A stretch of DNA of 54,095 bases from Candidatus Gastranaerophilales bacterium (GTDB lineage Bacteria; Cyanobacteriota; Vampirovibrionia; Gastranaerophilales; Gastranaerophilaceae): the NCBI GenBank assembly GCA_944322725.1, contig CALUPU010000011.1, positions 1 through 54,095 of the forward strand. The letters run 5' to 3'. This document shows positions 20,275 through 24,867 of this stretch, one piece after another. The notes beneath the pieces were generated by a model, which saw only the letters and a program-made list of their open reading frames with translations, was not told the DNA's origin and did not search any database. The position numbers were made by a program, and so were the translations under genes. Each line of letters starts with the position of its first letter. Position 1 is the first letter of the stretch.

Positions 20275-21822
20275 TTATTGATTCTCGACAAAATTTCTAT
20301 ATTGCAATGCCTGTGCAATATGCGCGCTTTCAATATCCGTACGGTTTTCTAAGTCTGCAATAGTTCTTGCAAGCTTTAGAATCCTGTCATAAGAACGGCC
20401 CGAAAGGTTAAAGCGTGAAATTGCCGTTCTGAGAAGGCTTTCACTCTTTTCATCAAGCTTGCAAAAAACTTTAACAAGTTCTGCATTTAGCTGTGAATTT
20501 GTAAGTATAGGATAGTCTTTATAACGCTGTGCCTGAATCTTTCTTGCTTTTACAACTCTTTTTCTGATGTCGGCAGAAGATTCATTTTTTGAATTTGTGT
20601 TTAAGAGTTCATCAGTACTCAGCCTCGGGACTTCAATCTGTATATCAATTCTGTCAAGGAGCGGCCCTGAAAGCCTTGAGCGATAGCGTTGAATCTGAAA
20701 CTCCGAGCAGGTGCACTGTTTTTGAGAATCCCCGAGATACCCGCACGGACAGGGGTTCATTGCGCCCAGAAGCATAAAATCCGCAGGATATTTAACGCTT
20801 GTCTGTGCACGAGAAATCACCACTTCACCCTCTTCCAGAGGCTGTCTTAAAACCTCCAGCACGTTTCTTGGAAACTCCACAATCTCATCCAGAAACAGCA
20901 CACCTCTATGCGCAAGGGTGATTTCACCGGGTTTAGGGTTAGAACCTCCGCCGATAATGCCGACAGACGATGCTGTGTGGTGAACGGAACGGAATGGTCT
21001 TTTGTTAATCAAAGGGCTGTCGTGGTGCAAAAGTCCTGCCACACTGTAAATTTTCGTAAGTTCAATAGCTTCTTCAAGTTCAAGAGGCGGGAGAATAGAG
21101 GCAAAACTTTTTGACAGCAAAGTTTTACCTGACCCCGGAGGCCCTGCCATAAGTATATTGTGTCCGCCCGCAGCAGCAATCTCAAGCGCGCGCTTTGCTT
21201 TTTGCTGACCTTTTATATCCTTGAAATCATAGTCGTAATGCGAGGTTGTGTAGTCATTCAAAAAGTCTTCTATATCAACCTCACATACCTCAAGCTCTTT
21301 TTTATTTTCCGCATTTACCCCAAAATGGTTCACAACATCCGTAAGCGTTTTTGCAGCAAGAACTTTTACACCTGGGATAAGCGCGGCTTCTTTAGCGTTT
21401 TCATAAGGAACAACAACCTGCTTTATCTCAAAATCTTTCAACCCCGAAACAATAGGCAGAATACCGTTCACAGCCCTTAAAGAACCGTCTAAAGACAACT
21501 CGCCAAGGAATGCCGTATTTTTAATTTCATTTTCATCCACAATGCCGTCACGTGCAAGAATACCGATAGCAATTGGCAGGTCATAGTTTGTGCCTACTTT
21601 TTTAATATCTGCGGGTGCGAGGTTTATTACTACTTTCTGATTAGGAAAAGCAAAGCCTGAATTTTTGACAGCGGAACGCACACGCTCCTTTGCCTCGGAG
21701 ATAGATGTATCAGGCAGCCCGACAATCACCACAGAGGGGATGGACTGGACAAAATCCACTTCGACAAGGATTTTGCATGATTCAATACCTATAACAGTTG
21801 ATGTAATAACCTGTGAAACCAT
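20275..21822 (-). CDS. comM: YifB/ComM-family Mg-chelatase-like AAA+ ATPase
   Basis: A 515-residue AAA+ protein. The N-terminal Lon-like domain (about 1-180) begins MVSQVITSTVIGIE. The Mg-chelatase-type ATPase follows, with Walker A GPPGSGKTLLS near residue 225, the FLDEIVEF Walker B and a C-terminal Mg-chelatase subdomain. A CPCGYLGD...C zinc-type cluster interrupts the ATPase, as in ComM. ComM homologues are hexameric branch-migration helicases that promote integration of DNA during transformation. It is convergent with scpB; a weak GC palindrome at 20254-20273 lies between them. Confidence 0.9.
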   Translation of the reverse strand: MVSQVITSTVIGIESCKILVEVDFVQSIPSVVIVGLPDTSISEAKERVRSAVKNSGFAFPNQKVVINLAPADIKKVGTNYDLPIAIGILARDGIVDENEIKNTAFLGELSLDGSLRAVNGILPIVSGLKDFEIKQVVVPYENAKEAALIPGVKVLAAKTLTDVVNHFGVNAENKKELEVCEVDIEDFLNDYTTSHYDYDFKDIKGQQKAKRALEIAAAGGHNILMAGPPGSGKTLLSKSFASILPPLELEEAIELTKIYSVAGLLHHDSPLINKRPFRSVHHTASSVGIIGGGSNPKPGEITLAHRGVLFLDEIVEFPRNVLEVLRQPLEEGEVVISRAQTSVKYPADFMLLGAMNPCPCGYLGDSQKQCTCSEFQIQRYRSRLSGPLLDRIDIQIEVPRLSTDELLNTNSKNESSADIRKRVVKARKIQAQRYKDYPILTNSQLNAELVKVFCKLDEKSESLLRTAISRFNLSGRSYDRILKLARTIADLENRTDIESAHIAQALQYRNFVENQ

Positions 21823-22034: not shown

Positions 22035-24035
22035 TTACCATTCTATTATTACCGCACCGGGGGCGCCATTTCCGCCTTTGCCGGAAAGTCCTTTAAATGT
22101 TCCGTCAGGTTTTTTAACGGGTTCGGAAGAATTGGCTCTTCCTCCGCCGCCGCCTGCACCAAAGTACTTGCCATGACCTGCCTGATCACAGTGCGCCGGC
22201 TCACCGGGAATTAATTCATATTTTTTTTCTGTAATATGTTCTGTTTTATATCTTTGACACTCTTCCTCACCATAATACAGACCGTTGCTGTCATAATAAC
22301 AACCGGTATCTTTGTCTATATAACAACTGTGGAACGTACTGCTAATATTGATTTGACCGTTTGAAACATTCATTTCGTTATCTTCTGATTCTACCACAGA
22401 GCATTGACGCGGAAATAAAACCTTTACCCCGATACTTGCCATATATCTAAAATAGGAATCTAACAATAGTGAGGGCAGCTGAACTTTTGATGCATCATCT
22501 GCAAGTTTATAATCAGAGTGCATTGAATAAGGTTGGAAAGCTTCCATTTGTTCCGGTAAATAAGTTTTTGTTGTTCCGGACATATAGTACATTTTTATTT
22601 TATTACCGTCACCATCAGATCTTACTGAAGTGCATTTTTTACTTACACATACTGTTTTATCATATTCATAGGGAACCCAGTCCATTTTGTCTTCAGTAGC
22701 ACCTTCACATTCAGGACCGGGTGTGCCTCCACCGATATATGACCACGGTGAATCTTCACCTGCTTCAGGCTCTTTAAGATTTTTATTACTTTTACCTGCT
22801 TTTCCTCCTCCGGCAGTAATTTTTAAATTAGCGTGTATTTTATCATTTAAAACAAATTGAACTATGCCGCCGTCACTGCCATTTTTTGCAATAGGAGCAA
22901 TTGTTATGACGGCTTTATCTTTCATAGAAGAAACAAATCTGTTTTTAATCTCACCTGCTTCACCGCCTGTGGCATGCCATTTACGTAATTGTCCGACAAC
23001 AACTGCGCCGTTAGAACCTGATGAGCCTAACGGACTTATAGTACCATTGCCAATATACTTAGCCCCGTTTCCACCATTACCGGCACCGGCTGGTGCAAAT
23101 ACAGGCAGATTAAGTTTGCCGCCTTCTAAATCCCAATTACCTCCACGGCCGCTTCTCCAGCCTTGACCTGTAATGCCTGCGTTTGCTGATAAATTGCCAT
23201 CTTTCAATGTTGCAGAAGCATTACCTGCAGCTGCACCGGAGCCACCTGCTCCGCCTCCGCATACATTAGTTCCCCAAAAATTGCCGCCACAGCCCATACC
23301 TTCACCGCCGCCGCCTCCGTTAGCAGTAAAATTAACATCACCGGATTTTCCCACAAAAGAACTGCCTCCGCCACCGCCGGCCCAGTAAGTTTTTCTGGGT
23401 TTTTTCCAGCCGCCGTTATATCTTCCTTGACCGCCATCACCGCCGCCGCCGACTTCATAATGATATGTATTACTTTCATTTAAATAGACTTTTCCATAAG
23501 ACCAGGACCCCGAACCACCGCCACCCGGTCCCTGATAATTGTCTTTTAAAGCATTATTATTGGCGCCGCCGCCTCCTCCTCCGCCGCCGACAACTAAAAC
23601 ATCATAATAATCGGATTCAAGTTTTTCCTCTGTATAATTTTTAAGAGACCAATCACCACTTCCGCTTCTCTCTGATAACATTGTGACATATTCGGAAACA
23701 CCATCACCGCCTGCTCCGCCTCCGCCGATTGCTGTAACTGAAAAATTTCTGGCTGTTATAGGCGGAACAAATGTACAGGAATCTGTTCCTGTTTCCAGCC
23801 ATGTATCAGGATTATTTATATCTGTATCGCTCGTATTTTTATCAAAATATACATATTTATCATTACTGTTTCTTGTACATATCCACAGCCCGTGCGAACC
23901 GTCAGTAAGGCTTCTTTTTTTCTTTGTCAAAACAGGAACAGAGGCTAATGTTATCAAACACACTATTAACAGTGTTATCAATGCTTCTGCGAGTGAAAAT
24001 CCAAAGATTTTCTTCATATTAATTTTCTTTTTCAT
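22035..24035 (-). CDS. Type IV prepilin-like protein fused to a glycine-rich domain
   Basis: A 666-residue protein. The N-terminus has a class III prepilin signal: KKIFG then FSLAEALITLLIV, with cleavage after G12 and the conserved Glu at mature position 5. About 20 hydrophobic residues follow. After roughly 90 residues comes a long region rich in Gly runs (GGGGAGG, GGGGGGGG, GGGGS and others), ending GAPGAVIIEW. Such Gly arrays and the Val-Ile-Ile-Glu end resemble tail-fibre adhesins that fold as polyglycine-II sandwiches. A cysteine-bearing, non-glycine segment lies at about 440-610. Probably a pilus-tip or surface adhesin; function inferred. AAGGAG is upstream. Confidence 0.75.
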   Translation of the reverse strand: MKKKINMKKIFGFSLAEALITLLIVCLITLASVPVLTKKKRSLTDGSHGLWICTRNSNDKYVYFDKNTSDTDINNPDTWLETGTDSCTFVPPITARNFSVTAIGGGGAGGDGVSEYVTMLSERSGSGDWSLKNYTEEKLESDYYDVLVVGGGGGGGGANNNALKDNYQGPGGGGSGSWSYGKVYLNESNTYHYEVGGGGDGGQGRYNGGWKKPRKTYWAGGGGGSSFVGKSGDVNFTANGGGGGEGMGCGGNFWGTNVCGGGAGGSGAAAGNASATLKDGNLSANAGITGQGWRSGRGGNWDLEGGKLNLPVFAPAGAGNGGNGAKYIGNGTISPLGSSGSNGAVVVGQLRKWHATGGEAGEIKNRFVSSMKDKAVITIAPIAKNGSDGGIVQFVLNDKIHANLKITAGGGKAGKSNKNLKEPEAGEDSPWSYIGGGTPGPECEGATEDKMDWVPYEYDKTVCVSKKCTSVRSDGDGNKIKMYYMSGTTKTYLPEQMEAFQPYSMHSDYKLADDASKVQLPSLLLDSYFRYMASIGVKVLFPRQCSVVESEDNEMNVSNGQINISSTFHSCYIDKDTGCYYDSNGLYYGEEECQRYKTEHITEKKYELIPGEPAHCDQAGHGKYFGAGGGGGRANSSEPVKKPDGTFKGLSGKGGNGAPGAVIIEW

Positions 24036-24136
24036 TCTGTCTCCTTAGATAGATATATATTCATCATATATTTATCTTCGGCGACTTTCACTGATTCTTG
24101 ACACTATTCACCGTCACTTACCTTACCTTACAGAAA

Positions 24137-24234: not shown

Positions 24235-24867
24235 CTAATCCTGTGCCAGATAATGCAATGCTTCTTTTAAAATTTCTTCTGAGGAATCTTTTTGAGCAGA
24301 TGTACACGCATATTTTATAGCTTTTTTTGCCTCCTGCTGTGAGTACCCCAGAGAAATGAGCACTGCCTGAGCCTCTGTTAAAGCCTCATTTGAAATTTCT
24401 TTTGTATCGGATTTAATATCCGAAATATCTACAGGCGAGGACTTTTGCCAGTTAATAAGTTTATCTTTGAGCTCGAGTATAATTTTTTGTGCAAGTTTAG
24501 GCCCCACACCTTTTGCTCTGGAAAGTTCTTTAAAATCGCCTCTGATAACAACAGAAATAAGGTCATATCCGGAAAATTCATCGAGAAGCACAAGAGCAAC
24601 CTTCATCCCTACACCTGAAACCGTCATAAGAATATTGAATATATCCCTGTCTTCTTTGTTCAAAAATCCGCATAAAAGCATGGCATCTTCTCTGTGAATA
24701 AGGCTTGTATAAACTCTCACCTCAGAACCTTCTTCTGAAGCAAGTGAAATATTTCTGCCCGTAGTGTTGATAAAATAGCCTATACCGTTATTCTCAACCA
24801 CAACAGAAGCACCTTTTGCACCTGCTGTTTGTTTAGATATGAGTTTACCTTTAATATAATCTAGCAT
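24235..24867 (-). CDS. ruvA: Holliday junction branch migration protein RuvA
   Basis: A 210-residue protein that binds four-way junctions as a tetramer and recruits the RuvB motor. It shows the N-terminal OB fold (MLDYIKGKLISK...), two helix-hairpin-helix motifs (VSGVGMKVALVLL and AKGVGPKLAQKIILEL) and the C-terminal UBA-like domain III (ALTEAQAVLISLGYSQQEA) that contacts RuvB. Its ATG overlaps the last codons of bioB by 7 bp. No ruvB or ruvC is in the window. Confidence 0.95.
   Translation of the reverse strand: MLDYIKGKLISKQTAGAKGASVVVENNGIGYFINTTGRNISLASEEGSEVRVYTSLIHREDAMLLCGFLNKEDRDIFNILMTVSGVGMKVALVLLDEFSGYDLISVVIRGDFKELSRAKGVGPKLAQKIILELKDKLINWQKSSPVDISDIKSDTKEISNEALTEAQAVLISLGYSQQEAKKAIKYACTSAQKDSSEEILKEALHYLAQD

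Follow-up and report, generated by a model that had tools for sequence, protein, structure and literature searches.

Glycine-rich prepilins with a predicted phage-fibre-type head in Gastranaerophilaceae

Pilins that carry extra domains are an established kind of protein, with 264 architectures in one survey (PMC8179133), and experiments have shown minor pilins onto which adhesive modules are grafted (PMC8179133, PMC9934059). Among phages, the glycine-rich domain of the cyanophage Pam3 fibre gp24 has been proposed to bind the receptor (PMC9608196), and the Pam3 structure 7YFW, Bxb1 gp33 (9D93) and S16 gp38 (6F45) are described, together with the receptors ALK/LTK, as glycine-rich polyproline-II bundles (PMC13243192). 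We found no report of a pilin with a glycine-rich or phage-tail module in the open literature, which was the scope of the search.

The gene described here lies in a stretch of 54,095 nucleotides (the window) from a contig of a Candidatus Gastranaerophilales bacterium. The Gastranaerophilales are relatives of the cyanobacteria and common, little-studied gut bacteria for which, to our knowledge, no mechanism of attachment is known. We consider it probable (roughly 0.6) that the gene product is a modular minor pilin by which a type IV pilus displays a binding head of phage-fibre type. In this report we describe its signal, domains and predicted fold, follow its family through related genomes, and weigh other functions that such a head could have.

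The prepilin signal and the base

The reading frame is intact and starts with ATG (Table 1). The N-terminus of the protein reads MKKKINMKKIFG/FSLAEALITLLIVCLITLASVPVLTKKKR, the leader junction being MKKKINMKKIFG/FSLAE, so that G12 takes the expected -1 position and Glu17 is the +5 residue, as in a class III signal. The sequence-only reading had claimed this signal, and the homologues bear it out, since all 38 aligned sequences have F13 and E17; a chance reading frame is ruled out by invariant residues of this kind. The pilin helix has a mean pairwise identity of 89% among the 12 long members. Pfam N_methyl scores 12.9 bits in the window protein, below its cut-off of 21.2, and matches 11 of the 38 family members at E<=0.01. 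In the base that follows, C87 is invariant and C53 is present in 37 of the 38.

Table 1. Features of the window gene, listed in the direction of translation after the whole gene
Feature	Positions	Strand	Evidence
Whole gene, encoding a modular prepilin of 666 aa whose body is glycine-rich	22035..24035	minus	Open reading frame, PF21722, family alignments, AlphaFold2 model
Ribosome-binding site TAAGGAGA, 4 bases 5' of the ATG	24040..24047	minus	Sequence
Leader peptide of the class III signal, residues 1-12; expected cleavage after G12	24000..24035	minus	Sequence; conservation of F13 and E17 (38 of 38)
Hydrophobic pilin helix, residues 13-42	23910..23999	minus	AlphaFold2 helix 15-32; identity by region
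Small beta base, residues 43-110, with C53/C87 and entry motif CTFVPPITARNFSVTAIGGGGAGG	23706..23909	minus	Conservation; AlphaFold2 pLDDT mostly >90
First glycine-rich (PGII-type) module, phage-fibre-like, residues 111-351	22983..23705	minus	PF21722 at 141-347; residues 115-351 superpose on the Pam3 fibre (VIA-align Z 18.1)
First half of the second glycine-rich module, residues 352-442	22710..22982	minus	pLDDT 91-96; phrog_863 matches in the C-terminal halves of homologues
Beta ribbon (450-474 with 587-609) carrying insert 476-590, flanked by C443/C616 and C468/C593; residues 443-616	22188..22709	minus	Cysteine quartet in 12 of 12; model strands
Last glycine motifs and closing strand GAPGAVIIEW, residues 617-666	22038..22187	minus	W666 invariant; strand 661-665, pLDDT 97

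The glycine-rich body and its predicted fold

Ten glycine runs of at least three residues are found in the body (lengths 4, 8, 4, 4, 5, 5, 3, 3, 3 and 5) and they comprise 44 residues, against a mean of 12.2 and a maximum of 32 in 2000 composition shuffles. The many glycine runs that had been read from the letters, ahead of the GAPGAVIIEW end, thus stand far above chance. Pfam family PF21722 (Gly_rich_2) matches residues 141-347 (E 1.1e-9; 39.1 bits against a cut-off of 24.3) and all 38 members of the family alignment at E<=0.01. The phage tail family phrog_863, annotated as tail fiber assembly, matches 32 of the 38 with a best E of 8.7e-20; at E 0.001 the window protein has no PHROG match of its own. 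Neither composition-shuffled bodies nor shuffles of six-residue blocks, which keep most of the glycine runs, gave any PF21722 or PHROG match, and thus the matches depend on the order of the residues and not on composition; a compositional artefact is ruled out by these shuffles and by the invariant residues in homologues. Searched with tblastn, residues 96-666 had no match among 50,697 phage records. Since the likeness to phage fibres appears at the level of profile and fold while this plain search returned nothing, common descent with them is unproven. A sequence search of the PDB with the single window protein likewise gave no match, and the family profile gave only weak ones, including the mitochondrial Obg-type GTPase MTG2 at E 0.0034, on which we do not rely.

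An AlphaFold model from the single sequence was unusable (pLDDT 33.5). With the alignment of 38 sequences AlphaFold2 gave a pLDDT of 75.3 and a pTM of 0.61, with 241 residues at 90 or above and mostly low confidence at residues 478-568. In VIA-align, model residues 115-351 superpose on the cyanophage Pam3 fibre with Z 18.1 and an rmsd of 2.6 A over 182 residues at 26% identity, followed by the Bxb1 tail tip (Z 16.2) and the glycine-rich domain of ALK/LTK (Z 10-12), after which the next row falls to Z 3.4; these comparisons rest on residues 115-351, and residues 352-666 are barely covered. Foldseek ranks the same chains at the top. In BFVD there are 122 matches at E<=0.001, and the best 50 of them are mostly phage proteins, many carrying the name 'Glycine-rich domain-containing protein' and several that of a tail protein. 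The predicted model therefore has a fold of the Pam3 gp24 kind, and its superposition on solved phage fibre heads and on ALK/LTK supports the earlier proposal of a phage-fibre-like polyglycine-II domain. The proposal had named S16 gp38 as the fold to compare; the polyglycine-II idea is supported, while 6F45 does not occur among the fold matches listed, and the closest solved relative is Pam3 gp24. From the fold matches and the published description of those folds (PMC13243192), the glycine segments of the window protein would adopt the polyglycine-II conformation.

The segment with cysteines, which the sequence-only reading took to break the glycine array, is real. C443, C468, C593 and C616 are invariant in all 12 long members, and the AlphaFold2 model places strands at 450-474 and 587-609. 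Their register (450 + 609 = 443 + 616; 474 + 587 = 468 + 593) sets C443 opposite C616 and C468 opposite C593, from which we infer two disulphide staples on one beta ribbon. The insert carried between the strands (476-590) ranges from 74 to 133 residues among members and has a mean pairwise identity of 9%, against 89% in the pilin helix and 56% in residues 621-666.

The family, its genomic setting and the pilus machinery

The genome that holds the window (1.9 Mb, 32 contigs, 95.6% complete) has four paralogues of the gene, with open frames of 616, 676, 566 and 126 aa. Matches were found in 40 of the 59 genomes searched, mostly of the same genus and with several copies each, some of them covering the prepilin helix only, above all outside the genus. 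A scan of contigs with the lone window protein gave no match, and the same scan with the family alignment gave 56 named loci, most titled Candidatus Gastranaerophilales. By a rough count over all fetched loci there are 69 distinct prepilin reading frames with glycine runs. The proposed search for prepilins with the same domain in related genomes was thus successful; the joined architecture noticed in the window stands, whereas the picture of a single such prepilin gives way to a multi-copy family, whose members commonly lie in tandem, three to four prepilins to a set. Of 240 genomes sampled evenly from the class, 26 have PF21722, and 25 of these belong to the same family; most of the PF21722 proteins of this family whose N-terminus was read have a prepilin signal, and they come from several genera. 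The 26th genome, from another family of the class, has a phage-tail-like protein (L171:787-2301, plus strand) with the same domain, matching phrog_8859, phrog_863 and phrog_754. Elsewhere in the phylum, sampled genomes that do not belong to the family (G283, G293, G311, G318) have PF21722 in proteins without a prepilin start.

The shortest members lack most of the glycine-rich modules. A 121-aa paralogue on contig C13 (L069:4314-4676, plus strand) has no modules and is made up of the helix, a base that includes the entry motif, and a GAPGAVIIQW end, and a 157-aa protein of another species, G003 (L183:3342-3812, plus strand), sits after the same two genes. Because the two occupy an equivalent chromosomal position in two species, they are probably not products of decay, and their form fits a self-closing base that accepts insertions.

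Several related proteins fall outside the prepilin set. On contig C8 of the same genome a 228-aa protein (L184:1113-1796, minus strand) shares the base motifs and ends in GAVIIQW, with a plain membrane anchor in place of the prepilin signal, and a FliR-like gene adjoins it. Weak PF21722 matches in open frames of 229-246 aa, near it in length, occur in G010, G012, G013 and G022. In genome G247, several reading frames of 187-224 aa with 33-39% glycine and no prepilin start (L152, L178, L198) end in VVIILVN or VVVILVN, one of them matching phrog_863; these may come from phages or belong to the cell surface.

The window gene is surrounded by housekeeping genes and is not part of a pilin operon. 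Its neighbours on the same strand are a YifB/ComM-type Mg-chelatase gene (20275-21822) and a gene that we read, from its sequence, as a putative ruvA (24235-24867). Elsewhere the family is arranged in rows: three loci (L077, L078, L081) each hold three large glycine-rich prepilins with one prepilin of about 300-320 aa and normal glycine content, and L186 and L188 hold three glycine-rich prepilins in a row. Tandems of two to three large glycine-rich prepilins were seen at L077, L078, L081, L087-L089, L118, L124, L186 and L188, and some sets end with an ordinary small prepilin. Such sets resemble minor-pilin clusters. UmuC-like genes recur in the genus beside glycine-rich prepilins or PilT genes (L071, L072, L075, L086), with LexA-like genes near two of these loci.

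A genome without prepilin peptidase and assembly genes would have spoken against a pilus protein. The genome encodes a prepilin peptidase (A24_N_bact, Peptidase_A24), two PilT-like retraction ATPases and ComEC, and a single gene row on contig C27 holds an extension ATPase (MshEN and T2SSE), a T2SSF platform protein and a secretin.

Possible functions and comparison with known systems

If the protein is a pilus subunit, the prepilin peptidase would cut at the helix and the type IV pilus machine would insert the protein into the filament. The tip would be the most probable site, since so bulky a head should not fit within the body of the filament; the same has been argued for Streptococcus sanguinis PilB (PMC8179133). 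The head would consist of a TNF-like beta base out of which polyglycine-II helices stack as a rigid bundle with variable loops, and the disulphide-stapled ribbon would add the hypervariable insert. Loops and insert together may bind a surface ligand, which could be a glycan, another microbe or the host mucosa, and the pilus, retracted by PilT, would then pull on what has been bound. With several paralogues in a genome, the pili would differ in their heads and in the ligands that these bind.

Large minor pilins other than this one, for example Thermus ComZ, have reportedly been proposed to act in DNA uptake, and the glycine-rich head could accordingly belong to a competence pilus and capture DNA. 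ComEC and the retraction ATPases are compatible with such a role, as are the YifB/ComM-type gene beside the window gene and a G013 member near YifB, UmuC and PilT genes. A single genomic neighbour is, however, weak evidence, the nearest relatives in fold bind to receptors on cell surfaces or to protein ligands and not to DNA, and four paralogues with hypervariable inserts suit varied ligands better; we therefore regard DNA capture as unlikely. A little less likely still is a pseudopilin-like part of a secretion system, whose head would dock or carry secreted cargo and bind no target surface. Minor pilins can carry secreted proteins, as in TcpB/TcpF and T2SS cases (PMC12075869). The genome yielded a single secretin and a single PilC-type platform protein, so one machine may serve several purposes; but the two PilT-like ATPases point to a pilus that retracts, and no obvious gene for a secreted partner lies beside the window gene.

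Polyglycine-II bundles are compact and hydrogen-bonded, and the modules might be purely structural, as rigid spacers or as stickers between filaments without a specific ligand. The 121-aa paralogue, which retains the base without modules, agrees with this, yet a conserved ribbon that is flanked by cysteines and carries a hypervariable insert speaks against it, as does the receptor binding proposed for a fold relative, and we hold it to be the least probable of these alternatives. We thus prefer the modular minor pilin with a binding head, against which weigh the solitary position of the window gene and its N_methyl score below the cut-off. Since related bacteria encode entire sets of these subunits, they probably hold their targets with their pili in much the same way as phages do. 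More tentatively, and with the odds somewhat against it, gut Gastranaerophilaceae may have acquired phage-fibre heads on prepilins and multiplied them, with variable loops and inserts setting the range of grip in the way that tail-fibre variation sets phage host range.

If the preferred reading is true, a Gastranaerophilales cell has several versions of a pilus head that is folded like the receptor-binding fibres of phages. Two attachment systems thought to be separate would become linked, a widespread module would join the list of pilin modules, and there would be an account of how these bacteria hold on in the gut. The family is also a natural library of how far polyglycine bundles tolerate variable loops.

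Among the known systems, PilB and PilC of S. sanguinis likewise have a class III helix, a small base and a large grafted module, in the size and layout of minor pilins (PMC8179133, PMC9934059); their modules are a vWA domain in PilB and a lectin domain in PilC, whereas here the module is a glycine-rich head of polyglycine-II type, with several paralogues per genome and tandem sets. Cyanophage Pam3 gp24 (PDB 7YPX, 7YFW) shares the TNF-like base and stacked glycine-rich loops. It is a trimer that docks to the baseplate by a helical N-terminus and needs the chaperone gp25, while the window protein has a prepilin anchor and, in addition, the ribbon insert; no chaperone gene was seen adjoining the window gene. 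In S16 gp38 (PDB 6F45) glycine-rich motifs likewise alternate with hypervariable segments, and the polyglycine-II idea applies to it as well (PMC6851490), but its N-terminal helical bundle, with Trp apices, binds gp37 where the window protein has its prepilin signal. The ALK/LTK extracellular domain also forms a bundle of polyglycine-II type, aligned over about 150 residues at 17-22% identity. These are eukaryotic receptor kinases, the window protein has no kinase, and the common fold says nothing about function. Modular pilins and glycine-rich phage fibre heads were known already; for their combination in one protein, its multiplication and its tandem arrangement we found no earlier description in the open literature.
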